From the NCBI RefSeq assembly GCF_001652265.1, contig NZ_LWBS01000108.1:56744-120743 (forward strand): 64,000 nucleotides of DNA, read 5' to 3'. Below, in pieces: positions 5,852 to 31,724 of this stretch. Position 1 is the stretch's first letter, and each line of letters begins with the position of its first letter. Under the pieces are notes generated by a model. It saw nothing but the letters and a program-made list of their open reading frames with translations. It did not search any database and was not told the DNA's origin. Origin of the DNA: Rhizobium leguminosarum. Its GTDB lineage: Bacteria > Pseudomonadota > Alphaproteobacteria > Rhizobiales > Rhizobiaceae. A program made the translations under genes and the position numbers.

Positions 5852-5861
5852 GAGCCCGCAG

Positions 5862-10417: not shown

Positions 10418-10433
10418 CTTTTCATGTCCTTGC

Positions 10434-14256: not shown

Positions 14257-15603
14257 TCATCCCTCGCGGCCTGCACGCAATTCCTGAAAGCGGATAACCG
14301 AATTGACCCCCAGCCACGCAAAGGGCTCGGGAGGTAATTTGCTCGGTTCCGGCTGGTTCCTGTATCGGTCGAGTTCGGAGGTACCCGCGCCGGCAGCCAG
14401 ATCGGCCGCCATCATCCCTGCGAGGGTGCTCTTGACCGTGCCGAGACCATTCTCGCAACAGGCGGAAAAAAGTCCCTCTTCGACCTCGCCGAATGCCGGC
14501 ACATGGTTTCTGCTGAGGCACAGAGCACCCGCCCAGCTATATTCCATCGGCAGGCTTTCCAGTCCGGGAAACCGCGCGTCGAACGACCGGCGCTGCTCGG
14601 CCGCCACGCCGGCGACCCGCTTCTCCGACACCTGGAGGCTCGGGTCGTAGGTGAACCTCGTCCTGATGACGATTCTCGAACGACCATCGGTGGTGATCTT
14701 TCTGACCGTCGCTCCCATCGGGTCGGCCGGCAGCAACGCCCAACGATCTGCGCCGCTCACATCGCCGCCGAACTCATTCTGGGAAAAGGCTGATGTCATC
14801 GACGCGTAGGTGAAGATGTGCATCAGCCGTCCGCGAAAATGGCCGAAGCTTTGAATATGGCCGTTCACACCCAGAATGACCTTCGGCGCGAAAACAGATC
14901 CGCGGCCGGACTTCGCCTTCCAGGACCTGCCCTCGCGCGAAAGTTCCAGCACCGGCGAGTGCTCGTGGATAGCGACCTTTGACCTAAGTCCCCGCGCCAG
15001 GCCGCGAATATAGTCGGCGGGCTGGATCATCACGGCGCCTGGCGTATAGAGCCCGCCGCGATAATAGCGCGAGCCGGTCATCTCCCGCATCTGATCGGCA
15101 TCGAGAACGCGATGCTCCTCGCCGATCTTTTCGAGCGACTTCCTGTAGTTGTCGTTAAGCCCGAGCCCCCGCTCGGAGGCGGCCGCATTCACCTTGCCCG
15201 ACGGATCGAAGGTTTCCCTGGACAAGCCGTATTCCGCCGCGACATCGGCTGCGAAGGAAATTGCCAGTCGGTTCTGCCTGATCTCGTCCTTGGTCGCCTT
15301 TTCGTCGGCCACCGAATATTCGCCTGAGGACAGATTGTGCGGCACGTCGATCATGAAGCCGGAATTCCTCCCGGCCGGTCCCTTGGCGACTTCGCGAGCC
15401 TCGAGGACGACGATCTTGTCCTCAGGGCGCAATTGCGAAAGGCGGCGCGCCGCCGACAGGCCGGCGAACCCCCCGCCGACGATCAGCCAGTCCGCGGTAA
15501 TGTCGTGCTCAAGCGCTGTTGCGGGAAAGGCGCGTTCGCTGATCGCCTCCCATCCCGAAACGCCGGTGTCGATCGGCAAGCGCTTGATCACATGGCGGGT
15601 CAT
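14257..15603 (-). CDS. FAD-dependent amine oxidoreductase, DAO/PuuB-like (possible D-hydroxyproline or N-methyl amino acid oxidase)
   Basis: A 448-residue flavoprotein of the D-amino-acid oxidase superfamily with an N-terminal Rossmann motif at residues 43-48 (IVGGGFAGLSAA) and GRNSGFM as in PuuB-type enzymes. Near the C-terminus it has FSACCENGLGTVKSTLAG. In hydroxyproline-betaine clusters, a DAO-family enzyme oxidises cis-4-hydroxy-D-proline to the pyrroline that the DapA-like enzyme then deaminates; that role fits here. Alternatively it oxidises an N-methylated imino acid. The gene start overlaps the aldehyde dehydrogenase stop by 4 bases, so the two are translationally coupled. Confidence 0.8.
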   Translation of the reverse strand: MTRHVIKRLPIDTGVSGWEAISERAFPATALEHDITADWLIVGGGFAGLSAARRLSQLRPEDKIVVLEAREVAKGPAGRNSGFMIDVPHNLSSGEYSVADEKATKDEIRQNRLAISFAADVAAEYGLSRETFDPSGKVNAAASERGLGLNDNYRKSLEKIGEEHRVLDADQMREMTGSRYYRGGLYTPGAVMIQPADYIRGLARGLRSKVAIHEHSPVLELSREGRSWKAKSGRGSVFAPKVILGVNGHIQSFGHFRGRLMHIFTYASMTSAFSQNEFGGDVSGADRWALLPADPMGATVRKITTDGRSRIVIRTRFTYDPSLQVSEKRVAGVAAEQRRSFDARFPGLESLPMEYSWAGALCLSRNHVPAFGEVEEGLFSACCENGLGTVKSTLAGMMAADLAAGAGTSELDRYRNQPEPSKLPPEPFAWLGVNSVIRFQELRAGREG

Positions 15604-17117
15604 CGGATCGTCTCGTCGACCGAGCGTTCCGAGACGTCGATCCAGATGGTCTTCAGTTCGCAGTAGTTGTCGTGGGCAAAGACCGACTTGTCGCGGCCGC
15701 CGAAGCCGGACTCCTTGTAGCCGCCGAACGGCGTACTGGCGTCGCCTTCGCCGAAGCAGTTGACGGTGACGACGCCGGCGCGGATTTCGCGCGAGAGCTT
15801 GATGGCATTCCTCAGGCTGCCGGTATAGACGGACGCCGTCAGGCCGTAATTCGTGTCATTGGCAAGAGCGATTGCTTCGGCAAGCGAATTGAAGGTGGTG
15901 ACCGAAAGCACCGGCCCGAAGATCTCTTCCTGGAAAAGACGGCTGGCAGGCGTTACACCCTCGACCACTGTCGGTTCGATGAAGATGCCGCCATGCGTTT
16001 CACCGCCATGGGTGACCGTCAGCTTCTCCTTCCTGGCGTCGTCGAGGAAGGATTTCACCTTCTCGAAATGCGCTTTGCTGACAAGCGCGCCGATGCGGTT
16101 TGCCGGGTCGAGCGGATCGCCCGTCTTCCATTCGCGCATATAGGCGCCGATGCGCTTCAGCAGCTCGTCCTTGACCTTGGAATGAACGATGAGACGCGAC
16201 GTGGCCGAGCAGTTCTCGCCCATGTTCCAGAAGGCGCCGTTGACGACCTGCTCGGCAACGAGGTCCAGGTCTTCGGCATCGTCGAGAACGACCGCGGGGT
16301 TCTTGCCGCCGCATTCGAGCACGATTTTCTTGAGGTTCGAGTCCGCGGCGTAACGCAAGAAACGGCGGCCAGTCGGCGTCGATCCGGTGAAGGCCACCAT
16401 ATCGACATCCATGTGCAGGCCGATCGGCTCGCCGACCTCCTTGCCGCCACCGGTCACGACATTGAACACGCCGGCTGGAATGCCCGCTTCATGGGCAAGC
16501 TCGGCGACGCGCAACGTGGTGAGCGTCGTTTCCTGCGCAGGCTTGACGATGACCGAGCAGCCGGCAGCGAGCGCCGGGCCGATCTTCCAGGCCAGCATCA
16601 GCAGCGGGAAATTCCACGGCAGCACGCATCCGACAACACCGATAGGCTCGCGCACGATCATCGTCAGCGCGTTGGCGCCGACCGGAGCCGTGTTGTCATA
16701 GAGCTTGTCGATCAGTTCGGCATGCCAGCGGAGCGTATGAATGGTATCGGGAACATCAACCGTCTGGCATTCGCGGACCGGCTTGCCGCTGTCGAGGCTT
16801 TCCATGACGGCGAGTTCATGCCTGTTGCGCTCCAAGAGTTTGGCGAGCTTCAGAAGCACTTCCTTGCGCTCATTGGGAGAACGAAGCCGCCAGCGGCCGT
16901 CGTCAAAGGCTTGCTTTGCCTTGGCGACGGCGGCGTCGACATCGGTGGCGTCGCATGCGGCGATCTCGGCGAGAACCTCGCCCGTCGCGGGATTCGTCGA
17001 GGCGAATGTCTGCCCGGAATTGGCCGGACGAAATGCGCCGTCGATGAAGGCATTCGTTGGAAACTGAAGGCCGGCGGCGATCGCCTTGTATTCGGAGGCG
17101 GTCAAGGGTTCATGCAT
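15600..17117 (-). CDS. NAD(P)-dependent aldehyde dehydrogenase, PuuC/HypH-like
   Basis: A 505-residue aldehyde dehydrogenase. The catalytic cysteine is in WNMGENCSATS, the general-base glutamate in LECGGKNP, and cofactor contacts in PWNFPLLM and FTGSTPTGRR. PuuC-type enzymes act on gamma-glutamyl-gamma-aminobutyraldehyde. With a DapA-like deaminase just upstream, the more likely substrate here is 2-oxoglutarate semialdehyde, the last intermediate of hydroxyproline catabolism, giving 2-oxoglutarate. It overlaps both flanking genes (8 bases upstream, 4 downstream). Substrate assignment is inference. Confidence 0.85.
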   Translation of the reverse strand: MHEPLTASEYKAIAAGLQFPTNAFIDGAFRPANSGQTFASTNPATGEVLAEIAACDATDVDAAVAKAKQAFDDGRWRLRSPNERKEVLLKLAKLLERNRHELAVMESLDSGKPVRECQTVDVPDTIHTLRWHAELIDKLYDNTAPVGANALTMIVREPIGVVGCVLPWNFPLLMLAWKIGPALAAGCSVIVKPAQETTLTTLRVAELAHEAGIPAGVFNVVTGGGKEVGEPIGLHMDVDMVAFTGSTPTGRRFLRYAADSNLKKIVLECGGKNPAVVLDDAEDLDLVAEQVVNGAFWNMGENCSATSRLIVHSKVKDELLKRIGAYMREWKTGDPLDPANRIGALVSKAHFEKVKSFLDDARKEKLTVTHGGETHGGIFIEPTVVEGVTPASRLFQEEIFGPVLSVTTFNSLAEAIALANDTNYGLTASVYTGSLRNAIKLSREIRAGVVTVNCFGEGDASTPFGGYKESGFGGRDKSVFAHDNYCELKTIWIDVSERSVDETIR

Positions 17118-18021
17118 GATTTGCTCCCGAGGTGATCTGGGCGACCGTGCGCTTCAACGTGGCGACGACGGTCTGGAGGGTTCGCTTTTCTTCGGAGTTG
17201 AGCGGACGCAGCGGCGCGCGGACCGATCCGACATTCAGCCCGATCAATTCGCATCCGTGCTTGATCGATTGAACGAACTTCCCGCATTCCAGGAAATCCA
17301 TGAGCGGCAGCATCGCCATCATGATCGCGCGGCCCTTGTCGAAATTCTTTTCGAGGACGCAGGCTTCATAGAGGGCGACATGTTCGCGCGGGAGGAAATT
17401 GGAGCCGGCGCAGACCCAGCTCTTCGCGCCCCAGGCGAAGAATTCGAGCGCCTGGTCGTCCCAGCCGCAGGACAGCGCGATGTGCGGAAATTTACGAGCG
17501 AGCAGGTGAAGATTGCCCATGTCGCCGGAGCTTTCCTTGATGGCGATCACGTTCTTCGACTTGCCGACGCGGGAGAAATACTCCTCGCCCATCACGACAC
17601 CCATGCGGGCCGGATAGTTGTAGAGCATGATCGGCAGGTTCGCCGCGCGGTCGACGGTCAGGGCGTGGACCGCATTCTCGCGCTCGGTCGGCAGCGCGTA
17701 TGGCGGTGACGACACCAGGATCGCGTCTGCGCCGAATTCCTTCGCCGCCTTTGCGTATTCGACCGAATCTTCGGTCCGCGTCGCGCCGGTTCCGATAATG
17801 AGCGGCAGCCGCGTGCGGATGACGTCTCTCGCATAGGCCGCGAGCTCGAAACGCTCCTGGCTGCTCTGGGCGTAATACTCGCCCGTCGAGCCGCCGACGA
17901 TGATGCCGTGGACGCCCGCCTCGATCAGCGATTCGAGCACGGCGGCAAAACCAGCCCTGTCGATCTGACCATTTTGATCAAGCGGCGTCACCGCCGGCGT
18001 GTAGATCCCCTCAAACTTCAC
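17110..18021 (-). CDS. DapA-superfamily lyase, likely 1-pyrroline-4-hydroxy-2-carboxylate deaminase (HypD-like)
   Basis: A 303-residue TIM-barrel enzyme of the dihydrodipicolinate synthase family. The Schiff-base lysine is K162 in AIKESSGD, and the tyrosine-containing YNYPARMG motif is at 134-141. In operons with hydroxyproline epimerase, DAO-family oxidase and a semialdehyde dehydrogenase, this family deaminates the hydroxypyrroline to 2-oxoglutarate semialdehyde. True lysine-pathway DapA is unlikely because of the catabolic operon context. It overlaps the GntR gene by 4 bases. Confidence 0.85.
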   Translation of the reverse strand: MKFEGIYTPAVTPLDQNGQIDRAGFAAVLESLIEAGVHGIIVGGSTGEYYAQSSQERFELAAYARDVIRTRLPLIIGTGATRTEDSVEYAKAAKEFGADAILVSSPPYALPTERENAVHALTVDRAANLPIMLYNYPARMGVVMGEEYFSRVGKSKNVIAIKESSGDMGNLHLLARKFPHIALSCGWDDQALEFFAWGAKSWVCAGSNFLPREHVALYEACVLEKNFDKGRAIMMAMLPLMDFLECGKFVQSIKHGCELIGLNVGSVRAPLRPLNSEEKRTLQTVVATLKRTVAQITSGANHA

Positions 18022-19140: not shown

Positions 19141-19713
19141 TCATGCGGCCAGGACGCCGCTCTTCTTGGCGGTCCAGGTTGCGATGTAGTCCATCAGGCC
19201 GGGGTTTAGGCAATCGTAAGGCTCGATGCCCGATGCCTTCAGCTGCGCTCTGACGGCGTCCATCTTGGCGGGGTCGAAGCCGCTTTCGATGATCGACGAC
19301 ACAAAGGCCGCAAAGCCCGGTTTCGCCCAGCCGCTTTCCTGAAAGCGCTCCGGATGGACGAACGACAATCCCTGGAACGGATGTTCGCGCACGACCGGCC
19401 CATACATATGAACGCCGCATTCCTTGCAGGCGTGGCGCTGGATCAAGGCTGTGGAATCGACGACGGCGAGCTTATCGCCATTCTCCTGGACTTCGACGCT
19501 TTCGGTCGGCGCGACCGCCACGACCGAAAAGACGGCACCGTCGGGCTTCCAGCACTTCGTGCAGCCGCAGGCGTGGTTGTGGGCGATATCGCTCTTGATC
19601 CTTACCTTCACGGGATTGCTGGCGCACTTGCAGACGAGCGTCCCGCCTGCGAAAGCAGCGTCAGTCGCCCGAAAGCCTGAATCCACTGCCGGATGTATGG
19701 CTATGCTGGTCAT
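19141..19713 (-). CDS. gfa: S-(hydroxymethyl)glutathione synthase (glutathione-dependent formaldehyde-activating enzyme)
   Basis: A 190-residue zinc protein, close to the usual length of Gfa. Zinc-binding cysteines are visible: C28/C30 (LVCKCAS), C49/C51/C54 (ACGCTKC) and C96/C99 (HACKECG). It speeds condensation of formaldehyde with glutathione, the first step of thiol-dependent formaldehyde detoxification. The start at 19713 has GAGGAG upstream. It is the last gene after adhC and fghA, and the operon also holds the N-demethylase, so its job is to trap formaldehyde made by demethylation. Confidence 0.93.
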
Positions 19714-19767
19714 GGGTTTCTCCTCCCCTTCTGGGCCGTTTGCGATATGCCCGGCCAAGCTCTGCAA

Positions 19768-20604
19768 TCAGTCTCCCAATCTTCGCGCGTGCCAGCGCAG
19801 ATGGTCTTCCATGAATGTCGAAATGAAGAAGTAGGAGTGGCCGTAGCCTTCCTGCATGCGAAGCCGCAGGCTGATGCCGGCTGTCTCGCAGGCCTGCCTG
19901 AGCTCTCCGGGGCGCAATCCATCCTCCAGGAAGCTATCCGCTGTCCCTTGGTCGACGAGGAATTCCGGGAACCGGTGCCCGTCTTCGATCAGCGAGCAGG
20001 CATCATATGCCCGCCAGTTCTTTTCATCCGCTCCGAGGTATTGCTGGAATGCCGGCTTTGACCAGCCGGAGACCGAGGGATGGCTGATCGGCGCGAAGGC
20101 CGAGCAGCTGCCGAAGCGTTCGGGGTTCTTGAGCGCGATCGTGATCGCGCCATGTCCCCCCATCGAGTGACCGAAGATTCCCTGTCGCGTCATGTCGACC
20201 GGAAACTCGGCCGCGATAAGTTTCGGCAATTCATCGACGATGTAGCTGTACATCCGATAGTTCTGTGCAAACGGCGGCTCGGTGGCGTCGACATAAAAGC
20301 CGGCGCCTTTTCCGAACTGCCAATTGTCCGGTTCGTCCGGAATGGCGTCGCCCCGCGGGCTGGTGTCGGGGCAGACAATGATCATGCCGAGTTCTGCCGC
20401 AAGACGCCGATACTCGCCCTTTTCCATGACGTTGGCATGGGTGCAGGTCAGGCCGGAAAGGTACCATAGAACCGGCAGCTTCCGTGCTTTGGCCTGCGGC
20501 GGCAGGAATACCGCAAAGGTCATATCGCAGTCGCAGGCGTCCGAGCGATCGACGTAAACGCCCTGGGTGCCGCCATGAGAATTTTCGGTCGAGATCGTCT
20601 TCAT
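19768..20604 (-). CDS. fghA: S-formylglutathione hydrolase
   Basis: A 278-residue esterase D family enzyme with the nucleophile serine S147 in GHSMGGHGA and the SGLTCTHANV segment near residue 50 that shapes the oxyanion hole. It hydrolyses S-formylglutathione to formate and glutathione, completing glutathione-dependent formaldehyde oxidation. It starts 3 bases after the adhC stop, indicating tight coupling. A formate dehydrogenase for the product is not obvious in the operon. Confidence 0.94.
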   Translation of the reverse strand: MKTISTENSHGGTQGVYVDRSDACDCDMTFAVFLPPQAKARKLPVLWYLSGLTCTHANVMEKGEYRRLAAELGMIIVCPDTSPRGDAIPDEPDNWQFGKGAGFYVDATEPPFAQNYRMYSYIVDELPKLIAAEFPVDMTRQGIFGHSMGGHGAITIALKNPERFGSCSAFAPISHPSVSGWSKPAFQQYLGADEKNWRAYDACSLIEDGHRFPEFLVDQGTADSFLEDGLRPGELRQACETAGISLRLRMQEGYGHSYFFISTFMEDHLRWHARRLGD

Positions 20605-20607
20605 CGC

Positions 20608-21735
20608 TCAATAGACCACGACGCCACGGATGCTTTCACCCTTGTGCATCAGCTCGAAGCCCTTGTTGATGTCTTCGAGCGGCATGGTGTGGGTGATCAT
20701 CGGATCGATCTGGATCTTGCCTTGCATGTACCAGTCGACGATCTTCGGCACATCGGTGCGCCCGCGCGCGCCGCCGAAGGCGGTGCCCATCCAGTTGCGG
20801 CCGGTGACCAGCTGGAACGGACGGGTGGAGATTTCCTGGCCGGCGCCGGCAACGCCGATGATAATCGATTTGCCCCAGCCGCGGTGCGATGCTTCCAACG
20901 CCTGACGCATCACCTTGGTGTTGCCGGTGCAGTCGAAGGTGTAGTCAGCGCCGCCGATCAGGTCGCCGTTGCGTTTGGTCAGGTTGACGAGGTAAGGCAC
21001 GATGTCGTCACCGACCTCCTTCGGATTGACGAAGTGGGTCATGCCGAACTTTTCGCCCCAGGCCTTGCGGTCAGGGTTGATGTCGACGCCGATGATCATG
21101 TCGGCGCCGGCAAGACGCAGGCCCTGAAGCACGTTGAGACCGATGCCGCCGAGACCGAAGACGATCGCCGTGGCGCCGATCTCGACCTTGGCGGTATTGA
21201 TGACCGCGCCGATGCCGGTGGTCACGCCGCAGCCGATGTAGCAGATCTTGTCGAACGGCGCGTCCGGGTTGACCTTGGCAAGGGCGATCTCCGGCAGCAC
21301 GGTGACGTTCGAAAAGGTCGAGCAGCCCATATAGTGGTGGATCTTGTCCTTGCCGATCGAAAAGCGGCTCGTTCCATCCGGCATCAGCCCCTGGCCCTGG
21401 GTTGATCGAATCGCGGTGCAGAGATTGGTCTTGCGGCTGAGGCAGGAATAGCACTCGCGGCATTCCGGCGTGTAGAGCGGAATGACATGGTCGCCCTTCT
21501 TCACCGAGGTGACGCCGGGACCGACATCGACGACGATGCCGGCGCCTTCATGGCCGAGGATCGCCGGGAAGAGGCCTTCGGGATCGGCGCCCGACAAAGT
21601 GAAATCGTCGGTGTGGCAAATACCCGTTGCCTTGACCTCGACCAGCACTTCGCCGGCCCGCGGCCCTTCCAGCTGCACGGTCATCACTTCCAGCGGTTTT
21701 CCTGCCTGAACGGCAACGGCGGCGCGAACGTCCAT
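20608..21735 (-). CDS. adhC: S-(hydroxymethyl)glutathione dehydrogenase / class III alcohol dehydrogenase
   Basis: A 375-residue zinc-dependent alcohol dehydrogenase of class III (also called frmA or flhA). Visible are the catalytic zinc region [27 protein letters not shown], the four-cysteine structural zinc loop (CRECYSCLSRKTNLC) and the NAD motif GLGGIGLNVLQG. It oxidises S-hydroxymethylglutathione to S-formylglutathione with NAD. The ATG at 21735 is preferred because AAGAGGAAGG lies upstream. It sits between a degenerate DddQ-like gene and fghA in the demethylation operon. Confidence 0.94.
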   Translation of the reverse strand: MDVRAAVAVQAGKPLEVMTVQLEGPRAGEVLVEVKATGICHTDDFTLSGADPEGLFPAILGHEGAGIVVDVGPGVTSVKKGDHVIPLYTPECRECYSCLSRKTNLCTAIRSTQGQGLMPDGTSRFSIGKDKIHHYMGCSTFSNVTVLPEIALAKVNPDAPFDKICYIGCGVTTGIGAVINTAKVEIGATAIVFGLGGIGLNVLQGLRLAGADMIIGVDINPDRKAWGEKFGMTHFVNPKEVGDDIVPYLVNLTKRNGDLIGGADYTFDCTGNTKVMRQALEASHRGWGKSIIIGVAGAGQEISTRPFQLVTGRNWMGTAFGGARGRTDVPKIVDWYMQGKIQIDPMITHTMPLEDINKGFELMHKGESIRGVVVY

Positions 21736-21886
21736 TTTGATATCCTTCCTCTTAAATTGAATTCTGATGCTAGATATTCGAAGGCGCCGGCTTCTCACCG
21801 ATCTGCTGCTGCGTCACAGCCGAGATTTCATGCTCTCGCCTTCGCGCTTTTCATTCATCTCGAACCCATTGTTGCCAAGTACCCCA

Positions 21887-22582
21887 TCACCTCTCCCGCT
21901 CAACCTGGCACCAGACCGCCAGCAGCGGCCGGGCCGTGCATCTTATCGCGAAGGATTGGCCGGCGTCGTTGGCAAAGACCGTACCGACACCGGCAGAGAA
22001 CCACTCGGAATCGCCAAGGCGGATTTCGCCCGGCGAAAGCAGAATGAAGGCGCGGGGCTGCGTCTGAACATGATCGGGGAATCTTGTATAGCGATCCATG
22101 TAGATCACGCCGACTCTGAGATCGGCGCGTTCCTCCATGCCGCCGGGACCGACCAAGACCGCATGGGAGTGCGTATTGCCGAAATTCAGGCTTGCAAACG
22201 GACCGGAGCGGCCGCGTCTCCAGAGCAGCTTGTCGGCGAGACTACGGAACTGGCCGGCGATCGCCTCATATTTCCGTCCCGATTTCGCAAGATGGTTGAT
22301 GGCGTCATCAAGCCCCTCCGGCGCGCCGGGAAGAGACCCGCCCTCCGGGCGCACCTTGCCGGTTTTGAGCAGTCTCTGGAGAACCTTGCCCGCGACGAAG
22401 CTGGCAACGGCAGGAGCCTCCGCCGACAACATCAGCCCGCCGACATCGTTGAGGAATTCCTGCAACGGCCGAGAACGTCTTTCCCTGCCGATGTCGTGCA
22501 GCCGTATGTATGCCGGCTTCTCGTCATCATTCAGGAGAAGGTCGGCACCAGGTTTGATTGGACGTCCCACGACGCGCGCCAT
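21887..22582 (-). CDS. Degenerate DddQ-like cupin (DMSP-lyase-like family, active-site residues lost)
   Basis: A 231-residue protein that aligns without gaps over ~80 residues to the intact DddQ-like protein of the same operon (24330-24935). Both share GPGG(M/L)EERxDL, RxPDH, EWFS/DWFS and a tryptophan-rich end. The residues matching the DddQ metal and catalytic site are changed: Tyr to F168, second His to Q173, Glu to R177, Tyr to F179 and last His to F211; only H171 is kept. It is therefore probably not a metal-dependent lyase, and could be a regulatory or structural partner. The start has GGGGAG upstream and lies 15 bases past the etfA stop. Confidence 0.75.
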   Translation of the reverse strand: MARVVGRPIKPGADLLLNDDEKPAYIRLHDIGRERRSRPLQEFLNDVGGLMLSAEAPAVASFVAGKVLQRLLKTGKVRPEGGSLPGAPEGLDDAINHLAKSGRKYEAIAGQFRSLADKLLWRRGRSGPFASLNFGNTHSHAVLVGPGGMEERADLRVGVIYMDRYTRFPDHVQTQPRAFILLSPGEIRLGDSEWFSAGVGTVFANDAGQSFAIRCTARPLLAVWCQVERER

Positions 22583-22596
22583 GTTCGGTCTCCCCG

Positions 22597-23535
22597 CTAG
22601 AGCGCCTTTTGCAATTCCGGCAGGGCCTCGAAGAGATCGGCGACCAATCCATAGTCGGCGACCTGGAAGATCGGCGCCTCCTCGTCCTTGTTGATGGCAA
22701 CGATCACCTTCGAATCCTTCATGCCTGCCAGATGCTGGATGGCGCCTGAAATGCCGCAGGCGATGTAGAGCTGCGGCGCCACCACCTTGCCGGTCTGGCC
22801 GACCTGCCAGTCGTTCGGGGCATATCCGGCGTCGACCGCGGCTCTGGATGCACCGACGGCAGCCCCCAGCTTGTCGGCAAGCGGCAGGATGACTTCCTTG
22901 AATTTTTCCGCCGAGCCGAGTGCCCGGCCACCGGAGATGATGATCTTCGCCGATGTCAGTTCCGGGCGGTCGGAGTTGGAGAGCGCGTCTCCGATGAAGG
23001 TGGAAAGACCCGGGTCGGAAACCGCCGGAATTGCCTCGACGGCAGCCGAGCCGCCTTCGGGCGCAGCAGCAAAGGATGCCGTGCGCACGGTGATGACCTT
23101 CTTGGCGTCCGTTGCCTGCACCGTCTGGATGGCGTTGCCGGCATAGATCGGCCGCTTGAAGGTGTCGGACGAGATCACCTCGATGATTTCGGATACCTGG
23201 GCGACATCGAGAAGAGCTGCCACCCGCGGCAGCGCGTTCTTGCCGACCGAGGTCGCGGCCGAGATGATCGTGTCGTAGCTGGCGGAGAGCGAAACGATCA
23301 GGTCGGCCAGCGGTTCGGCCAGATTGTTGGCGAGTTCGTCGCTTTCGGCCAGCAGCACTTTCGAGACGCCGGCGAGCTTGGCGGCATCGGCTGCAGGCTT
23401 GGCAGCCTTGCCGGCGACGAGAATGTGAATATCGCTTGCCTGGTCCTTGGCGATCTTGGCTGCTGCCGTCAGCGCCTTGGCGGTCTGATCGGACAGGCTG
23501 GCATTGTCGTGGTCAGCCAGAAGAAGAATGGTCAT
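22597..23535 (-). CDS. etfA: Electron transfer flavoprotein alpha subunit
   Basis: A 312-residue ETF alpha subunit. The C-terminal FAD-binding half has [36 protein letters not shown] and [16 protein letters not shown], all standard. With EtfB it accepts electrons from the flavin-dependent N-demethylase encoded upstream (24983-27019) and passes them to ETF-ubiquinone oxidoreductase. It is encoded 25 bases after etfB. A dedicated ETF pair inside the operon suggests specialisation for this demethylase. Confidence 0.95.
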
Positions 23536-23560: not shown

Positions 23561-24310
23561 TTACAGCACGCCGGCTTCGTTCTTGAGCTTGTCGATCAGT
23601 TCGGCGACCGACTTGACCTTGACGCCGGCCTTGCGGCCGGACGGCTCCTCGGTCTTCAACACCTTGAGACGCGGCGTGGTGGAGACACCGAAGTCGCCAG
23701 GCGTCTTCTTGTCGAGCGGCTTCTTCTTCGCCTTCATGATGTTCGGCAGTGAGGCATAGCGCGGTTCGTTCAAGCGCAGATCGGTGGTCACAACCGCCGG
23801 CAGCTTGATCTCGATCGTCTGCAGGCCGCCATCGACTTCGCGGGTGACCTGAGCCTTGCCGTCACCGATCTCGATCTTCGAGGCGAAGGTCGCCTGGGCA
23901 ATTCCCATCAGCGCCGCCAGCATCTGGCCGGTCTGGTTGCTGTCGTCATCGATCGCCTGCTTGCCGACGATGATCAGCCCAGGCTGTTCGGCATCGGCGA
24001 CAGCCTTCAAGATCTTGGCGACAGCGAGCGGCTCGATCTGATCGTCGGTCTCGACCAGGATCGCCCGATCGGCGCCCATGGCAAGGGCGGTCCTCAGCGT
24101 CTCCTCGGCTTTGGCCGGACCGATCGAGACGACCACCACTTCCTCGCACCTGCCGGCTTCCCTCAGCCGCAAGGCCTCTTCCACCGAGATCTCGTCGAAC
24201 GGGTTCATCGACATCTTCACATTGGCAAGCTCGACACCCGTGCCATCCGGCTTCACCCGGATCTTCACGTTGTAGTCGACAACCCGTTTGACTGGGACGA
24301 GTATCTTCAT
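23561..24310 (-). CDS. etfB: Electron transfer flavoprotein beta subunit
   Basis: A 249-residue ETF beta subunit beginning [17 protein letters not shown], the typical N-terminus. It has the AMP-binding segment [17 protein letters not shown] and the ETF-beta signature-like [25 protein letters not shown], which interacts with partner dehydrogenases. The ATG at 24310 is preceded by AAAGGGGGG; a longer frame from 24352 is unlikely. It lies between the DddQ-like cupin gene and etfA. Confidence 0.95.
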
Positions 24311-24329: not shown

Positions 24330-24935
24330 CTAAACTGCTGGCCGTTCGGCAAGTAATGCCCAGAAGGCGAAGAGCGGCGTGTCGAGCGACCTCATGGCAT
24401 GCTTGATGTCGGGGACATTGTAGAAGGATCCGCCGATACCTGGCGAAAACCAGTCCCCCTCCCCCTGCTGGAACTCTCCTTCGGAAAGCACGAGATAAAC
24501 TTCCTCGGGCACATGGTCGTGATCCGGATATCGCACGTGAGGCGCCATCAAGGTCACGCCGATCCACAGGTCGCTCCGCTCTTCCAATCCTCCCGGGCCG
24601 ATAATCATGGCATTGGCATGCCCATCGACAAAATTGTCGCTGGCCGTGTGGTCATACTTGGTGCGCCGATGCCATTCAAGCATTGGCTCGATGCCTTTGA
24701 ACCCGTCGATCAAACGCGTCAGTGAAGGATATGACGTATCGAAGGAAAGCGCCACATCAAGCTGAGCACACACGGGCAATCGGCTTCCCGGCCCCGCACG
24801 CGCAGCCCCCGGGCGCTCCAGCGCCGCGAAAATCTGACGGACCGAGCGGCGGGCTTCCGGTGCCTTGGCGAACTGGTCGAAAGCCGCGAAAGCCGCATCG
24901 AGGAAAATCTGCAGGCTTTCACTGCGTAAGCTCAT
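24330..24935 (-). CDS. DddQ-like cupin metalloenzyme (DMSP-lyase-like family) with complete active site
   Basis: A 201-residue cupin. The motif [17 protein letters not shown] followed by a distant His gives Y136, H139, H141, E145, Y147 and H179. Each is exactly 16 positions beyond the residues I recall for Ruegeria lacuscaerulensis DddQ (Y120, H123, H125, E129, Y131, H163), so the metal site and the tyrosine base are conserved in sequence and spacing. The N-terminal helical region also fits. DddQ cleaves DMSP by removing an alpha proton; here, with N-methyl betaine genes all around, a related proton-abstraction reaction on a betaine or an elimination is plausible. Start ATG 24935 has GGAGGTGATG just upstream. 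Confidence 0.82.
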
Positions 24936-24982: not shown

Positions 24983-27019
24983 TCAGATATCTTTCGCGAT
25001 GCGCAATCCGTCATAGACGGCGGCATGCGTGTTGCGTGCGGCGACCGCATCCCCGATCCGGAACAGCTGAAACTTGCCATCAGGATTGCGGATCACGGAC
25101 TGCGGCTCTCCGGAAAGAAGCTGGTCGTGCGACATCTCGCCGAGATTGCTCGAGCTGGGTTTCAGTTCGAAATAGAGCTCATCGAGCGGAATGGTTCCAT
25201 GATTGACGACGATCTGGTCGAAGCTCTGCTGCCTGGCAATCCCGCCGTAGTCGCTGCCGACATGGGCAACGAGCTGGTTGCCGCTCTTTTCGACGGCTTC
25301 CAGACGGTAGGTGACGGTGAAGGTCACGTCATGCTTTTGGAGGGACCGCATATAGGGCACCAGGTTCATGGCCATGACCTCGGGCGCGAAGGAGCGGTCC
25401 GGCGTCATTATCTCGACCTTGGCGCCGGCCTTGGCGAGAAACTCGGCTGCCTGAAGGCCGGCATGGTCGCCGGCATCGTCGAAGATCAGCACGTTGGTTC
25501 CAGGCTTCACGTCGCCGGAGATGATGTCCCATGAAGAGACCACCAGCTCGTTGCCGCTGGCGAGAACCTCGGTATGCGGCAAGCCGCCGGTCGCGATGAT
25601 GACGACATCGGGGTTCTCGGCCTCGATGGTATCGGCTTCCGCCCAGGTGTTGAAGTGGAAGGTGACGTCGTATTTTTCGCACTGGCTCATGCGCCAGTCG
25701 ATGATGCTGATCATCTCCCTGCGGCGCTCGCTTTGGGCGGTGAGGCGGATCTGACCGCCGGGATTGTTCGCCGCTTCGAAAACCACGACCTGGTGGCCGC
25801 GTTCTCCGGCGACGCGCGCCGCTTCCAGACCGGCCGGGCCGGCGCCGACGATGACGACCTTTTTCTTGGCGTCGGCTTTTTCCACGATATGCGGCATGGT
25901 CAGTTCGCGGCCGGTGGCGGCGTTATGGATGCAGAAGGCCGCCCCGCCCTGGTAGATGCGATCGAGACAGTAATTGGCGCCGACGCAGGGACGAATATCG
26001 TCTTCCCGCTTTTCGATGATCTTGCGGACGATGTGCGGATCGGTCATGTGGGCGCGGGTCATGCCGATCATGTCGACCTTGCCGGAGGCAATCGCGTAGC
26101 GCGCGGTGGCGACGTCGGGGATTTTTGCGGCATGGAAGGTCGGGAAGTCGGTCGCGGCGCGAATTTCGCCGGCAAAATCGAGATGCGGTGAATTCGCCAT
26201 ACCCTGGATCGGGATCACGTCTGTGAGACCGGCATCGGTATCGATGTGACCGCGAATGACGTTCAGGTAATCGATGAGGCCGCTTTCCTTCAGGCGCCTG
26301 GAGATTTCGATGCCGTCGCCCTTGCCGGTGCCGCCGGGAAGACATTCGTCGGCGGTATAGCGCACGCCCAGAATGAAGTCGTTCCCCACCCTTTGCCGGA
26401 TCGCCTTGAACACGTCGAGACAGAAGCGCAAACGATTATCGAGCGAGCCGCCGTAGGGACCGTCGAGTTCGTTGGTGAGCGGCGACGTGAACTGGTCGAT
26501 CAGATGGCCGTAGGCTTCCAGTTCGACACCGTCCATGCCGCCCGCCTTCATGCGCTCGGCGGCGTCGGCAAAATCCTTGATGATGCGCTCGATGTCCCAA
26601 TCTTCCATCTTCTTCGGGAAGGAGCGGTGGGAAGCCTCGCGATGATGCGACGGCGCCACGACCGGCAGCCAGTCGCCCTTGTCCCAGCGCGTGCGCCGGC
26701 CGAGATGGGTGAGCTGGATCATGATCGCCGCACCCTCTTCATGCACGGCGTCGGTCATTTCCCTGATCCAGGGCACGATCTCGTCCTTATAGGCGAGCAG
26801 GTTGTTGAAGACCGGCGGACTGTCCCTGGAAACCGCGGCCGAGCCGGCCGTCATCGTCAAGGCCACACCGCCCTTTGCCCGCTCCACCGTATAGGCGCGA
26901 TACCTCTCCTTCGGCATGCCGTCTTCCGGATAAGCCGGCTCGTGGGAGGTCACGATGATACGGTTGCGCAGCGTCAAATGCTTGAGCTGGTAGGGCTGAA
27001 GAAGGGGATCGTTCGACAT
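24983..27019 (-). CDS. Flavin/iron-sulfur N-methyl amine demethylase, DgcA/StcD-like (trimethylamine dehydrogenase family)
   Basis: A 678-residue protein. The N-terminal TIM barrel binds FMN (old yellow enzyme fold). A [4Fe-4S] cluster is expected in the segment CVGANYCLDRIYQGGAAFC. A nucleotide-binding domain with VVIVGAGPAGLEAARVAGERGH follows. The family includes dimethylglycine demethylase DgcA, stachydrine-pathway StcD and the N-methylhydroxyproline demethylase of hpb clusters. It should remove the last N-methyl group as formaldehyde and give electrons to the EtfAB encoded in the same operon. It is the first gene of the eight-gene operon and is divergent from a TetR gene. 2,4-dienoyl-CoA reductase is the usual misannotation. 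Confidence 0.88.
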   Translation of the reverse strand: MSNDPLLQPYQLKHLTLRNRIIVTSHEPAYPEDGMPKERYRAYTVERAKGGVALTMTAGSAAVSRDSPPVFNNLLAYKDEIVPWIREMTDAVHEEGAAIMIQLTHLGRRTRWDKGDWLPVVAPSHHREASHRSFPKKMEDWDIERIIKDFADAAERMKAGGMDGVELEAYGHLIDQFTSPLTNELDGPYGGSLDNRLRFCLDVFKAIRQRVGNDFILGVRYTADECLPGGTGKGDGIEISRRLKESGLIDYLNVIRGHIDTDAGLTDVIPIQGMANSPHLDFAGEIRAATDFPTFHAAKIPDVATARYAIASGKVDMIGMTRAHMTDPHIVRKIIEKREDDIRPCVGANYCLDRIYQGGAAFCIHNAATGRELTMPHIVEKADAKKKVVIVGAGPAGLEAARVAGERGHQVVVFEAANNPGGQIRLTAQSERRREMISIIDWRMSQCEKYDVTFHFNTWAEADTIEAENPDVVIIATGGLPHTEVLASGNELVVSSWDIISGDVKPGTNVLIFDDAGDHAGLQAAEFLAKAGAKVEIMTPDRSFAPEVMAMNLVPYMRSLQKHDVTFTVTYRLEAVEKSGNQLVAHVGSDYGGIARQQSFDQIVVNHGTIPLDELYFELKPSSSNLGEMSHDQLLSGEPQSVIRNPDGKFQLFRIGDAVAARNTHAAVYDGLRIAKDI

Positions 27020-27165: not shown

Positions 27166-27795
27166 ATGGATCAGGCTCTGAATGACACAGGCTGGCGCGG
27201 ATCACAGGAGGGATGGCTGGAAGCAGCGTACCACTCGCTGCTGGATTCCGGCGTGGATTCGGTGAAAATTCTGCCGCTGGCGAAGAAGCTCAATCTCTCG
27301 CGCACGAGCTTCTACTGGTTCTTCAAGGACCGGGAGGAGCTGTTGGCCGGGCTCGTGGCGCGGTGGCGCGACAAAAACACCGGTAACATCGTCAAGCAGT
27401 CCGAAGCCTACGCGGAATCGCTCGCCGAGGCGATGCTCAACGTCTTCGATTGCTGGCTCAACAATGATCTGTTCGACGCCAGGTTCGAGTTCGCCGTGCG
27501 CAGCTGGGCGCTGCAGTCCGACGAGATTCTCGCCGAGGTCCGGCAAGCCGATCAGCTCCGGCTCGATGCGCTCAAGCGGATGTTTATCCGGTTCGGGCTA
27601 CCAGAAGCGACATCAGATGTCCGAGCGCGAACAACTTACCTCGTGCAGATCGGATACATCTCTATGCAAGCTAAGGAGGAACTCGCCGTCCGCATGAAAC
27701 GGATTCCCGAATATATCGCGATCTACACCGGCGAAGTGCCGCAGCAGAGGGAGCTCGATCGCTTCTTCTCCCGGCATGGCTATAGGCCGGGTTAG
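27166..27795 (+). CDS. TetR-family transcriptional regulator
   Basis: A 209-residue protein with an N-terminal TetR DNA-binding domain (AAYHSLLDSGVDSVKILPLAKKLNLSRTSFYWFFKDREELLAGLV) and a helical ligand domain. TAGGAG precedes the ATG. It is divergent from the N-demethylase operon and is followed 11 bases later by proC and a betaine transporter, so it may control both directions. The ligand is unknown. Confidence 0.88.
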   Translation: MDQALNDTGWRGSQEGWLEAAYHSLLDSGVDSVKILPLAKKLNLSRTSFYWFFKDREELLAGLVARWRDKNTGNIVKQSEAYAESLAEAMLNVFDCWLNNDLFDARFEFAVRSWALQSDEILAEVRQADQLRLDALKRMFIRFGLPEATSDVRARTTYLVQIGYISMQAKEELAVRMKRIPEYIAIYTGEVPQQRELDRFFSRHGYRPG

Positions 27796-27806: not shown

Positions 27807-28601
27807 ATGAGCGTTTCCTTGAGGATCGGGATCATTGGCGGCGGCGGTTGGCTTGGCGGAGCAATCGCCGGCTCGATCCTTGGTGCCGGCCTGGTCGAAC
27901 CTCGAAACCTCTCCCTCTCTTATCGCAGTGAGCAGCCGCGCCGCTTCCCGAATTCTTTCCTGACCACCGACAATCAGGCGCTTGCCGACCGTTCGGACGT
28001 GATCGTTCTTTCCGTCCGTCCTGATGACTGGCATGCTCTTGATGTCGATGCCGGCGGCAAGCTGGTCATCTCGGTCATGGCGGGCATCCGCCTGGACGCA
28101 CTTTCCGAGCGCCACAACACCGGTCGCGTCGTCCGCGCTTTGCCGAACGCCGCCGCCGAAGTGGCCAAGTCCTATACGCCGTGGATTGGCACGAGCGATG
28201 TCACCGAAGACGACCGGGCGCTCGTCCGCGCGATTTTTCAGGCATGCGGATCTGAGGACGAGGTCGCAAGGGAAAGCGACATCGATTACCTCACGGGTCT
28301 TTCCGGGTCCGGACCGGCATTCCCTGCGCTGCTCGCCGCCGCCATGATGCGCGACGCCATCGCTAATGGCCTGCCGGGGGGGATTGCGCGCCGCGCCGTC
28401 AACACGGTGATCACAGGCGCAGGTCGCCTGCTGGAGCGCCGCGACGAATGTCCCGATGACGTCGTTCAAACCTTTGTCGGCTATCGAGGCACCACTGCGG
28501 CAGCCATCGAGTCCATGCGCGCTGCCGGGTTCGACGCTTCGGTCGCGAAGGGACTATCGGCGGCATTCAAGAAATCGGTGAGTATGGGAGACGCTTCCTG
28601 A
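27807..28601 (+). CDS. proC: Pyrroline-5-carboxylate reductase family protein
   Basis: A 264-residue member of the ProC family. It has the N-terminal NAD(P) motif IGIIGGGGWLGGAIA and the C-terminal helical signature LTGLSGSGPAFPALLAAAMMRDA with the later TVITGAG. In housekeeping biosynthesis it makes L-proline from pyrroline-5-carboxylate. Being encoded between a TetR regulator and a betaine importer, it may instead reduce a pyrroline intermediate of betaine or proline breakdown, or rebuild proline for osmoprotection. That role is inference; the housekeeping copy may be elsewhere. Confidence 0.88.
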   Translation: MSVSLRIGIIGGGGWLGGAIAGSILGAGLVEPRNLSLSYRSEQPRRFPNSFLTTDNQALADRSDVIVLSVRPDDWHALDVDAGGKLVISVMAGIRLDALSERHNTGRVVRALPNAAAEVAKSYTPWIGTSDVTEDDRALVRAIFQACGSEDEVARESDIDYLTGLSGSGPAFPALLAAAMMRDAIANGLPGGIARRAVNTVITGAGRLLERRDECPDDVVQTFVGYRGTTAAAIESMRAAGFDASVAKGLSAAFKKSVSMGDAS

Positions 28602-28668: not shown

Positions 28669-29670
28669 ATGAAAAAACTACTCGCATCGACATGTCTGAC
28701 GTTCGGCCTGATCGGCGGGGCGTCTTTCGCCAGCGCCGCCGAATGCGGCACGGTGACCATAGCCAGCATGAACTGGCAGAGTGCGGAGGTTCTCTCCAAC
28801 CTCGACAAGTTCATCCTGAACGAAGGTTATGGCTGCCAAGCGGAAATCACCGTCGGCGATACCGTTCCGACGATTACCTCGATGGCCGAAAAGGGCCAGC
28901 CTGATATCGCGCCGGAAGCCTGGATCGACCTGCTGCCCGATGTCGTCAAGAAGGGAACGGAAGAAGGCCGGATCGTCCAGGTCGGCTCTCCGCTGCCCGA
29001 TGGCGGCGTGCAGGGCTGGTGGATTCCCAAATATCTGGCCGACGCCCATCCCGACATCAAGACCATCGGTGACGTGCTGAAGCATCCCGAACTCTTCCCC
29101 GCTCCCGAGGATCCGAAGAAGGGCGCGATCTACAACGGACCGCAGGGCTGGGGCGGCACCGTGGTGACAACGCAGCTCTACAAGGCCTTCGAAGCCGACA
29201 AGGCCGGCTTCACCCTCGTCGATACCGGCTCGGCTGCCGGCCTCGATGGTTCGATCTCCAAGGCCTACGAACGCAAGGAAGGCTGGGCCGGCTATTACTG
29301 GGCGCCGACCGCTCTGCTCGGCAAGTATCAGATGGTCAAGCTGGAAGCCGGCGTGCCGAACGACGCCGCCGAATGGAAGCGCTGCAATACCGTCGCCGAC
29401 TGCCCTGATCCGAAGCCGAATGCATGGCCGGTCGATCACGTGGTGACCCTGGTTGCCAAGCCTTTTTCGGAAAAGGTTGGGCCTGAGGTCATGGACTATC
29501 TGACGAAGCGCTCCTGGAGCAATGAGACGGTCAACAAGCTGATGGCGTGGATGACCGACAACCAGGCGACCGGCGAGGACGGTGCCAAGCACTTCCTGAA
29601 GGAAAACAAGGACCTCTGGACCAAGTGGGTCTCGCCTGAGGCAGCCACGAAGATCGAAGCTGCTCTCTAA
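28669..29670 (+). CDS. Glycine/proline betaine ABC transporter substrate-binding protein, second system
   Basis: A 333-residue periplasmic protein with a signal peptide (cleavage after FASAA, near residue 24). The OpuAC-like domain has ASMNWQSAEV, EAWIDLLP, GGVQGWWIPKYL and WAGYYWAPTALLG, rich in aromatics that can cage a quaternary ammonium. It is only distantly similar to the binding protein at 13328-14179 (longer, different N-terminus), so the two importers probably differ in substrate. GAGGGAACGAG precedes the ATG. A stem-loop follows the gene. Confidence 0.88.
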   Translation: MKKLLASTCLTFGLIGGASFASAAECGTVTIASMNWQSAEVLSNLDKFILNEGYGCQAEITVGDTVPTITSMAEKGQPDIAPEAWIDLLPDVVKKGTEEGRIVQVGSPLPDGGVQGWWIPKYLADAHPDIKTIGDVLKHPELFPAPEDPKKGAIYNGPQGWGGTVVTTQLYKAFEADKAGFTLVDTGSAAGLDGSISKAYERKEGWAGYYWAPTALLGKYQMVKLEAGVPNDAAEWKRCNTVADCPDPKPNAWPVDHVVTLVAKPFSEKVGPEVMDYLTKRSWSNETVNKLMAWMTDNQATGEDGAKHFLKENKDLWTKWVSPEAATKIEAAL

Positions 29671-29680
29671 CGTCGACTAA

Positions 29681-29703
29681 GCGGTGCGCGTAAAGCGCAC
29701 CGC
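29681..29703 (+). terminator. Intercistronic stem-loop after the second binding-protein gene
   Basis: GCGGTGCGC (29681-29689) and GCGCACCGC (29695-29703) pair perfectly around GTAAA. It lies 10 bases after the stop codon of the binding-protein gene and before the permease gene, in the same arrangement as the hairpin at 13293-13320. Likely mRNA stabilisation or partial termination. Confidence 0.6.
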
Positions 29704-29764
29704 CTCTCGCTGCCGATAAAATCAAAAAGACTGCCACGGCTCTTTGAAGAAAAAGGGGAACCGA

Positions 29765-30652
29765 ATGGAATGGTTTTATAAATTCCCGCATATGGATGAC
29801 GATGCCCTTCGCAATCTGAAGAAGGCGATCGATGACGGTTTTCGCGCATTTACCCGCAGCTATGGCGACGCGATCGAAAGTCTCTTCTCCCCGCTGCAGC
29901 ATTTCCTGATCGCCGCCGACCGCTTCATGACGCAGACGCCGTGGCCGATCATTACGGCAATCATCCTTGTCATCGCATGGTTTGCGAGCCGCAGCCTGAA
30001 GATCGTCCTCGGCTGTCTCGTCACACTGCTGTTGATCGGCTATTTCGACATGTGGGACGATACGATGCGGACGGTGTCGATGATCTTCGTCTGTACCGTG
30101 CTCTCCATCGCCATCGGCATTCCGATGGGGATATTGATGGCGCGTTCCGACCGGCTACAGCGCGTTATCAATCCGATCCTCGACGTCATGCAGACCATGC
30201 CGAGCTTCGTCTATCTCATCCCTGTCGTGATGCTGCTCGGCATCGGCAAGGTGCCGGGACTGATCGCCGTCGTCATCTACGCCATCCCGCCGATGATAAG
30301 GCTGACCGATCTCGGCATCCGCCTGGTCGACAAGGACGTGCTGGAGGCCGCCGACGCTTTCGGAACGTCCAGTTCGCAGAAGCTGTTCAAGGTCCAGCTG
30401 CCGCTGGCGCTTCCCACCATCATGGCCGGCATCAACCAGACCATCATGATGGCGCTCGCCATGGTGGTCGTTGCCTCGATGATCGGCGTCCAGGGCCTTG
30501 GCCAGCCGGTTCTGAAGGCCATCGCCAACCAGTACTTCACCCTGGGTATTTTCAACGGCCTTGCCATTGTCGGCATTGCCATCATCTTCGACCGGGTCAG
30601 CCAGGCGTATGGCAAGCGGCTCCAGAAGCATCGGGAGATCGTCCATGGCTGA
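29765..30652 (+). CDS. Glycine/proline betaine ABC transporter permease, second system
   Basis: A 295-residue membrane protein with about six hydrophobic segments and the coupling loop EAADAFGTSSSQKLFKVQLPLALP. QTMPSFVYLIPVVMLLGIGKVPG matches ProW/OpuAB proteins. Only one permease gene occurs here, so this channel is presumably a homodimer, unlike the first importer. ATG 29765 has AAGGGG just upstream. The gene end overlaps the ATPase gene by 8 bases. Confidence 0.88.
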   Translation: MEWFYKFPHMDDDALRNLKKAIDDGFRAFTRSYGDAIESLFSPLQHFLIAADRFMTQTPWPIITAIILVIAWFASRSLKIVLGCLVTLLLIGYFDMWDDTMRTVSMIFVCTVLSIAIGIPMGILMARSDRLQRVINPILDVMQTMPSFVYLIPVVMLLGIGKVPGLIAVVIYAIPPMIRLTDLGIRLVDKDVLEAADAFGTSSSQKLFKVQLPLALPTIMAGINQTIMMALAMVVVASMIGVQGLGQPVLKAIANQYFTLGIFNGLAIVGIAIIFDRVSQAYGKRLQKHREIVHG

Positions 30653-31724
30653 TCAACGTTTCGGCGGCATCAAGATCCGCCACCTCTACAAGATCTTCGG
30701 TCCGAATCCTGCCGCTCATGTCGATGCCGTCCAGAAGGGATTGTCGAAGACCGAGCTCAACGAAAAGCACGGCCACGTGCTCGGCCTGAAAGATATCAAT
30801 GTCGAGATACCCTCGGGCCGCATCCAGGTCATCATGGGTCTTTCGGGTTCGGGCAAGTCGACGCTCATCCGCCACATCAATCGTCTGATCGATCCAACCG
30901 CCGGCGAAGTGCTTGTCGACGGCGTCGATGTGGTGAAAATGAATGAGACCGAATTGCGGGCGTTTCGCCGGCACCAGACGGCCATGGTGTTTCAGAAGTT
31001 TGCGCTTCTGCCGCACCGAAATGTTCTCGACAATACCATCTTCGGCCTCGAAGTGCAGGGCATAGAGCGCTCGAAAGCCGCCGACGTCGCCATGGGCTGG
31101 CTGGAACGGGTCGGCCTGAAGGGCTTCGAGAGCAAATATCCCAACCAGCTATCGGGCGGCATGCAGCAGCGCGTCGGGCTGGCGCGAGCCCTCTCGAATG
31201 ATGCTCCCGTTCTGCTGATGGACGAAGCCTATTCGGCGCTCGATCCGTTGATCCGCACGGATATGCAGACGGTCCTTCTCGACATTCAGAAGGAGATCAA
31301 GAAGACCATCGTCTTCATCACCCATGACCTCGATGAGGCCCTTCGGCTGGGCGACCAGATTGCGATCCTGCGCGATGGCGAAGTCATCCAGCAGGGCACC
31401 AGCCAGGACATCGTTCTGCGTCCGGCAGACGCCTACATCGCCAACTTCGTCAAGGAGGTCAATCGAGGCCGGGTCATCCAGGTCGATGCCGTCATGACAT
31501 CCTTGCATTCCGGCGCGGCGCCAGGCGGATTGACGATTGCATCAGGAACGACCGTCGAAGAGGCCGTCCGGATGTTGGCATCGGCGCAGGACAACGATGC
31601 GAAGGTGATTTCGCCATCCGGGGAAGCATTGGGCCTTGTCACCTTCCGCCAGCTCGCGGGCGCGATGGTGAACTCGCAGGAGGTGGCTCCCCGACGCGAC
31701 AGCGCCCTCTCGGTCGCACTTTGA
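30645..31724 (+). CDS. Glycine/proline betaine ABC transporter ATPase, second system
   Basis: A 359-residue ATPase with the long OpuAA-type N-terminus, Walker A GLSGSGKSTL, signature LSGGMQQRVGLARAL, Walker B VLLMDEAYSALDP and FITHDLDEAL. The usual proline after the catalytic glutamate is alanine here, which should not prevent ATP hydrolysis. The C-terminal ~90 residues form a weakly conserved CBS-like region. It is the last gene of the TetR-proC-importer operon. Start ATG 30645 was chosen over an upstream in-frame start inside the permease gene. Confidence 0.9.
   Translation: MADQRFGGIKIRHLYKIFGPNPAAHVDAVQKGLSKTELNEKHGHVLGLKDINVEIPSGRIQVIMGLSGSGKSTLIRHINRLIDPTAGEVLVDGVDVVKMNETELRAFRRHQTAMVFQKFALLPHRNVLDNTIFGLEVQGIERSKAADVAMGWLERVGLKGFESKYPNQLSGGMQQRVGLARALSNDAPVLLMDEAYSALDPLIRTDMQTVLLDIQKEIKKTIVFITHDLDEALRLGDQIAILRDGEVIQQGTSQDIVLRPADAYIANFVKEVNRGRVIQVDAVMTSLHSGAAPGGLTIASGTTVEEAVRMLASAQDNDAKVISPSGEALGLVTFRQLAGAMVNSQEVAPRRDSALSVAL

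Follow-up and report, generated by a model that had tools for sequence, protein, structure and literature searches.

Databases label one protein of Rhizobium leguminosarum a dimethylsulfoniopropionate (DMSP) lyase. The protein, called CUP1 here, is encoded within an N-demethylase/ETF operon. What does a cupin with the active site of a DMSP lyase do in such company? We addressed this question in a 64,000-nucleotide stretch of R. leguminosarum DNA (the window) and in related loci and genomes. CUP1 is a real feature: the family to which it belongs is an established one, if mostly of unknown function, and its well-conserved context gives it a testable role in a pathway. Proline betaine is a methylated osmoprotectant made by plants, and CUP1 very probably acts in the pathway of this compound.

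The CUP1 reading frame lies on the minus strand, with its ATG at 24935 and its stop at 24330, and encodes 201 amino acids; a plus-strand reading of 24330..24935 is excluded by four stops. Pfam and alignments place the product among the metal cupins of PF16867 (DMSP_lyase-like), with an intact six-residue site of the DddQ type. Against the PF16867 DMSP_lyase model CUP1 scores 188 bits, where the gathering cut-off is 27, and the E-value of 1.3e-55 excludes chance as the source of the residue matches. The initial annotation had given a constant offset of 16 between these residues and those of DddQ. The alignment agrees: Y136, H139, H141, E145, Y147 and H179 stand opposite DddQ Y120, H123, H125, E129, Y131 and H163, each 16 positions away. 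These DddQ residues form the active site and are essential for catalysis, according to an extract of PMC4437653. In the mutant chain 4la3 (DddQ Y131A), the substituted Ala lies opposite CUP1 Y147. The site (YHHEYH) is present in every CUP1-type row of the family alignment. As read from the sequence, the cupin metal-site residues and the two catalytic tyrosines are complete in CUP1, and the metal itself is predicted. A search of PDB sequences with CUP1 returned five DddQ-type chains and then, at E 0.095, 5xkx, which is DddY by its PDB title. Structure modelling likewise predicts a DddQ-type fold, N-terminal helices included. The copy on pRL12 of R. johnstonii (leguminosarum) 3841 is 95% identical to CUP1, in keeping with a genome of the R. 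leguminosarum kind.

The surrounding genes point to demethylation. An N-demethylase/ETF operon had been claimed, and the Pfam and NCBIfam matches uphold it: a TMADH/OYE-type flavoprotein is followed by the cupin, ETF-beta, ETF-alpha, a second cupin, FrmA, FGH and GFA. The flavoprotein (24983..27019, minus strand; 678 amino acids, Pfam Oxidored_FMN and Pyr_redox) resembles the N-methylproline demethylases HpbA and StcD, and it ends 47 nt before CUP1 starts. It is of the TMADH type of FMN oxidoreductase, with ETF genes adjoining, and its PDB hits include trimethylamine and histamine dehydrogenases. Its position is that of the annotated hpbA in P. pantotrophus, and it is 88% identical to an OYE on pSymB of S. 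meliloti 2011; stcD is carried on pSymB, as stated in an extract of PMC12239276.

All the genes downstream of CUP1 in the operon share its strand. The ETF beta subunit occupies 23561..24310, where the reading frame opens with TTG at 24352 and the sequence makes the ATG at 24310 the likely start; the ETF alpha subunit follows at 22597..23535, assigned by a domain match. Next comes the second PF16867 cupin, cup2 (21887..22582, 231 amino acids), assigned by Pfam, alignments and a model; its metal site is lost. The remaining three genes encode S-(hydroxymethyl)glutathione dehydrogenase (FrmA, class III ADH; 20608..21798, with the ATG likely at 21735; TIGR02818), S-formylglutathione hydrolase (19768..20604; TIGR02821) and S-(hydroxymethyl)glutathione synthase (GFA; 19141..19767; TIGR02820), each above its NCBIfam cut-off. 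The operon has the look of a demethylation unit that releases formaldehyde.

Divergent from the demethylase, on the plus strand, is a TetR-like regulator (27166..27795), so named because of where it lies and because its counterpart at locus L125 is annotated TetR/AcrR; it had no match in Pfam at 1e-6 or in NCBIfam at 1e-20. A P5C-reductase-like protein (27807..28601, plus; 167.8 bits, under the housekeeping ProC cut-off of 196.75) and a betaine/proline-type ABC transporter, ProX-ProW-ProV (28669..31724, plus; OpuAC, a permease domain and proV above cut-off), complete this side. Elsewhere in the island are a 4-hydroxyproline 2-epimerase of the proline racemase family (9419..10534, minus; PF05544, and PRK13971 at 576.9 bits with a cut-off of 376) and a set that by family is hydroxyproline-catabolic: a DAO-family oxidase, an aldehyde dehydrogenase and a DHDPS-family protein (14257..18021, minus). 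A Rieske oxygenase (4598-5851) and its reductase (5685-6932), together 4598..6932 on the plus strand, are by context of the proline-betaine demethylase type. Taken together, the operon, the divergent genes and the island suggest catabolism of proline betaine and of hydroxyproline or its betaine. Beyond the transporter, at 34174-36468 on the minus strand, lies a gene that reads like a molybdopterin oxidoreductase; many loci of the R. leguminosarum group have a homologue in this place, past the betaine transporter.

Could CUP1 simply be what the databases call it, a true DMSP lyase with the function of DddQ, cleaving DMSP imported by the betaine transporter? Besides the name, it shares family, fold and six residues with DddQ, and the island offers a second hint. 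The initial annotation had noted a DddP-type gene with an intact site, and at the level of sequence this gene is real: the M24 protein at 6980..8260 on the plus strand, recognised by alignment to DddP chains, retains the Tyr and the Asp that are mutated in DddP chains 4s00 and 4s01, respectively. A DddP-like gene occurs in two of 80 named cupin loci (L075, L078) and also at L149 and L190, in flanks of at most 10 kb, whereas the two genes are 16 kb apart in the window.

The family tree argues against this role. Its 61 rows split, at 100/99, into a clade of 36 rows with CUP1 and cup2 and a clade of 25 rows that includes three DddQ chains, whose rows were partial. Inside the former, the demethylase-linked cupins form one group (98/89), into which L086 and L088 also fall, cupins whose surroundings (L152, L154) lack a demethylase; the metal-less cup2 lineage is a group of its own (100/100). 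CUP1 and DddQ 4la2 are identical at 30 of 126 aligned positions, the six site residues among them. Fifty-seven columns (residues 67-192) are invariant in 14 close kin of CUP1; DddQ 4la2 shares 19 of these and differs at 38. The description of CUP1 as a DddQ-like cupin holds for the intact site but finds no support for closeness to DddQ itself, which belongs to a different clade and departs from the kin at 38 of the 57 invariant columns.

A weak further point against DMSP lysis is that no AcuI scored above cut-off in the window's own genome, which is 93% complete. AcuI was found in eight of 12 cupin genomes, the window's own being among the four without, and in five other genomes with a known cupin position it lies on another contig than the cupin. 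It is a poor test, because in roseobacters no acuI is reported near dddQ and because rhizobia that bear dddD, such as R. leguminosarum WSM2304, have none. R. leguminosarum J391 has served as the host for DMSP screens, in an extract that shows no DMS control value, so this use is given no weight here. On balance DMSP lysis is unlikely as the role of CUP1, and we give very little credence to a DddQ-like enzyme fed by the betaine transporter.

How closely is the cupin tied to the demethylase? We examined 80 named cupin loci, the best 80 of 157 relatives. In 70 of them the demethylase is the next gene upstream, on the same strand, and in 72 it lies inside the examined locus; in the 70 adjacent loci the gap between the two genes is 10-167 nt. 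Among 180 genomes of the family, all nine that have CUP1 at 60% identity or more carry an adjacent demethylase of at least 81%. A demethylase of at least 79% is present in 34 of the 180, and the association of the two genes has a p of 1.2e-7, uncorrected for kinship.

The arrangement reaches beyond R. leguminosarum. Plasmid pPAN2 of P. pantotrophus carries hpbA, a cupin, ETFB and ETFA in this order, with hpbD, a Rieske gene, P5CR and ProVWX around them; its cupin is 40% identical to CUP1 over the whole length. In Rhizobium sp. AB2/73 the operon continues with ETF-QO, FrmA, FghA and Gfa, up to an M24 gene in convergent orientation, and on pSymB of S. meliloti 2011 the cupin and demethylase adjoin. 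At L224, outside the class, a demethylase (70%) and a cupin (54%) are adjacent, with a P5CR-like gene and ETF beside them.

The loci with no adjacent demethylase vary. At L044 the order is Rieske, reductase, cupin; L042, L045, L076 and L213 have hydroxyproline genes; and L054, L056, L059, L077 and L081 (five of the 80) lack every betaine and hydroxyproline gene that was sought. Eight of the 80 have no demethylase in the examined stretch; one of 74-83% is found elsewhere in the genomes of L045, L054, L056 and L076, only a relative of 59-63% in those of L042, L059 and L081, and none at E 1e-150 in that of L077. The picture is more varied in the wider family: none of the sought genes stands beside the cupins of L210 (58%), L211 (54%) and L214-L220 (36-45%). 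These loci, like the five above, weigh against the pathway reading.

Seen from the side of the demethylase, the cupin is accessory, since its presence is patchy. It is also dispensable, a point against the catabolic role proposed below, for it is not directly downstream in 20 of 90 distinct demethylase loci, most of this lacking set being hand-picked: 20 demethylase regions were chosen by hand, 19 without an adjacent cupin and one (L147) with it. Seven duplicates and the loci with short flanks were left out of the 90, and the counts are uncorrected for kinship. On a quick tree of the demethylase, which left out rows with stops, short rows and rows below 68% identity and in which near-copies were thinned, presence of the cupin changes at least 15 times, with three of the changes forced by strongly supported branches. 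The cupin also evolves faster than the demethylase, with a dN/dS of 0.151 as against 0.052 (27 pairs each).

Which genes accompany the pair? Of 70 demethylase loci with the cupin, 62 have a P5CR-like gene nearby, as have 5 of the 20 without it; for the ProX transporter the counts are 63 of 70 and 7 of 20. TetR (68/70 and 19/20) and Rieske genes (15/70 and 4/20) were counted in the same way. ETF-beta is near in 32 of the 70 and in none of the 20; the former count is a minimum, as many of the loci stop shortly after the cupin, and on these figures we rejected ETF as an obligatory companion of CUP1. Among the loci that bear ProX, the P5CR-like gene accompanies 58 of 63 with the cupin and four of seven without (p 0.028). 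The link to P5CR is weaker among these transporter-bearing loci and so may reflect complete clusters. Two loci have no demethylase in the examined stretch and yet a P5CR-like gene: at L203 just upstream of the cupin, and at L042 upstream with an AraC-type gene between. Near the cupin of L045 is an OCD protein that resembles pyrroline-2-carboxylate reductase (240 bits, below the cut-off of 322), and beside that of L152 an Ldh_2 protein. The conserved demethylase context is the new evidence here; the P5C-reductase-like partner and the metal-less cup2 are absent from the initial annotation.

Tight coupling need not mean catalysis. CUP1 might be a non-catalytic or auxiliary partner of the demethylase and ETF, binding metal or acting as a sensor, possibly together with cup2. 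The short gap of the 70 adjacent loci would suit such a partner, and NCBI names some CUP1 copies 'transcriptional regulator' (among 120 of 825 homologues listed). A scaffold would need none of the six catalytic residues, however, and every CUP1-type row has them all; moreover, demethylase orthologues of 75-91% do without an adjacent cupin in 21 of 106 rows.

The second cupin is a further argument for an auxiliary function. The protein is 33% identical to CUP1 and keeps one of the six site residues: F168, H171, Q173, R177, F179 and F211 replace Y, H, H, E, Y and H. The full metal site is absent from all the cup2-lineage rows aligned. The predicted structure (pLDDT 81.5) nevertheless finds its best fold matches in DddQ entries, and a dN/dS of 0.092 over ten non-independent pairs indicates purifying selection. 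We considered a decaying gene and rejected it on this ratio. A dead paralogue is thus retained under selection in the same operon: cup2 is present in the operon at all ten loci of the R. leguminosarum/etli group (L003-L029) with at least 3 kb downstream, and L147 has a homologue of 40% identity in its operon. Named relatives in the cup2 lineage are Rhizobium or Pararhizobium (47 proteins, many nameless), with a Sinorhizobium copy at L128. As a general partner of the demethylase cup2 fails, for seven relatives (L191-L197) have no demethylase genes in surroundings of 14-20 kb. It looks like a retained pseudoenzyme and is a candidate pseudoenzyme partner. For CUP1 itself, with its complete site, we judge a purely auxiliary role improbable.

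What, then, might CUP1 catalyse? Tentatively, and at somewhat less than an even chance, we take it to be a metal-dependent cupin with an accessory part in the catabolism of proline betaine (stachydrine) and hydroxyproline betaine in Rhizobium, where it would abstract the alpha-proton of an N-methylated proline. Proton abstraction on a methylated onium carboxylate had been suggested for this island from the start; it survives, though as no more than a reasonable inference. The residues H141, E145 and H179, with Y147, would hold a divalent metal to which the carboxylate of the substrate binds, and Y136, Y147 or H139 would take the alpha-proton, as proposed for DddQ. Metal-carboxylate binding with proton removal by Tyr or His is proposed for both DddQ and DddW in the extract of PMC4437653. 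The substrate would be an N-methylated proline that the pathway could not otherwise use.

Beta-elimination of a 3-hydroxylated N-methylproline seems the likeliest single reaction, if a doubtful one when named by itself. It would be the DddQ reaction with OH as the leaving group. The resulting pyrroline could then go to the P5C-reductase-like protein, which may act on a methylated or shifted pyrroline, and the reduced product to HpbA for demethylation. 3-Hydroxystachydrine occurs in plants; no gene specific to 3-hydroxyproline was identified. Epimerisation at the alpha-carbon comes second and is a fairly unlikely choice; elimination is favoured because of the link to the reductase. The two reactions are chemically close, since one enzyme of the enolase superfamily does both: it epimerises cis-3-hydroxy-L-proline and also dehydrates it to pyrroline-2-carboxylate, and it has hydroxyproline-betaine epimerase and proline-betaine racemase among its relatives (extract of PMC5144071).

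Epimerisation might also be the whole function. CUP1 would then epimerise (racemise) N-methylproline or (hydroxy)proline betaine at the alpha-carbon, like HpbD in role, converting isomers that a stereospecific demethylase cannot use. Two Tyr and a His round a metal-bound carboxylate would suit proton transfer on two faces, and a search of the window's genome for HpbD gave no match at E 1e-60. Strict HpbD (five genomes, at least 56%) and CUP1 at 60% or more (nine genomes) never occur together among the 180, which says little because the overlap expected by chance is below one. P. pantotrophus, however, has HpbD as well as the cupin, and the island already has its 4-hydroxyproline epimerase. This epimerase also speaks against any need for CUP1, and no cupin is needed to complete the known route to proline or 4-hydroxyproline. 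We consider an HpbD-like role rather unlikely. Replacement of HpbD was discarded as the main idea given the P. pantotrophus case and the small sample, as was the idea that proline racemase is lost in genomes whose cupin belongs to a hydroxyproline operon, PF05544 genes being present in eight of eight such genomes.

Distant members of the family occur in other settings. The cupins of L150 (8995-9864) and L151 (8612-9487), 46% identical and with the site intact, have an arginine-deiminase/DDAH-like protein and formate-THF ligase for neighbours, in a methylamine/C1 setting of another kind. At L202 (9668-14808) a cupin (41%) is directly upstream of DAO-family and sarcosine-oxidase-alpha-type proteins. 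In these three loci C1 genes take the place of betaine genes. Further C1 leads are a sarcosine oxidase near the cupin of L189, in addition to that beside the cupin of L202, and glyA at L126, in addition to the ligase of L150 and L151. A general C1 or formaldehyde role was not adopted and is a lead only, many other distant members having none of the sought genes. Near the cupins of L214-L216 (42-45%) is a gene whose sequence reads like that of an adenylosuccinate lyase.

A literature search that covered few subscription papers found, among the titles and abstract openings listed, no published link of the cupin to stachydrine or proline-betaine catabolism, and the extracts of PMC3017554, PMC4029986 and PMC4113996 say nothing of the cupin. 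The link would matter in two ways. DMSP-lyase labels on family members of unknown function could mislead estimates of DMS production. Proline betaine gives one clade a testable role, also in model strains such as R. leguminosarum 3841 and S. meliloti 2011. We offer a broader and more speculative suggestion, which we doubt more than we believe: a large clade of 'DMSP lyases' from soil and rhizosphere bacteria would consist of alpha-carbon lyases or epimerases of N-methylated prolines, with DMSP cleavage as one specialisation within a broader betaine chemistry, and in R. leguminosarum/etli the cupin would work with its metal-dead paralogue from the same operon. If this were true, a marine sulfonium lyase and a terrestrial betaine enzyme would share one active site.

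How does CUP1 compare with known systems? It is 20-24% identical to DddQ of Ruegeria lacuscaerulensis (4LA2), R. pomeroyi (5CU1) and Roseovarius nubinhibens (4B29). DddQ differs from the kin of CUP1 at the invariant H106, N108, W124, R135 and R182 and forms a separate, supported clade, whereas the context of CUP1 is a demethylation operon. DddP (4RZY, 4B28) aligns with the M24 neighbour over residues 40-424 of 426, with 39% identity to 4rzy (151/385); the M24 gene adjoins the Rieske operon, and its fold is unrelated to that of the cupin. With the Hpb/Stc pathway of proline betaine (HpbA, StcD, the Rieske demethylase and HpbD) the locus has in common the same kind of demethylase, ETF, Rieske, transporter and formaldehyde genes; we know of no step in that pathway assigned to a cupin. 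Lei et al. 2018 reportedly described DMSP-lyase-like (DLL) cupins whose function is unknown. CUP1 shares their family, and to that family the present analysis adds a specific pathway context.
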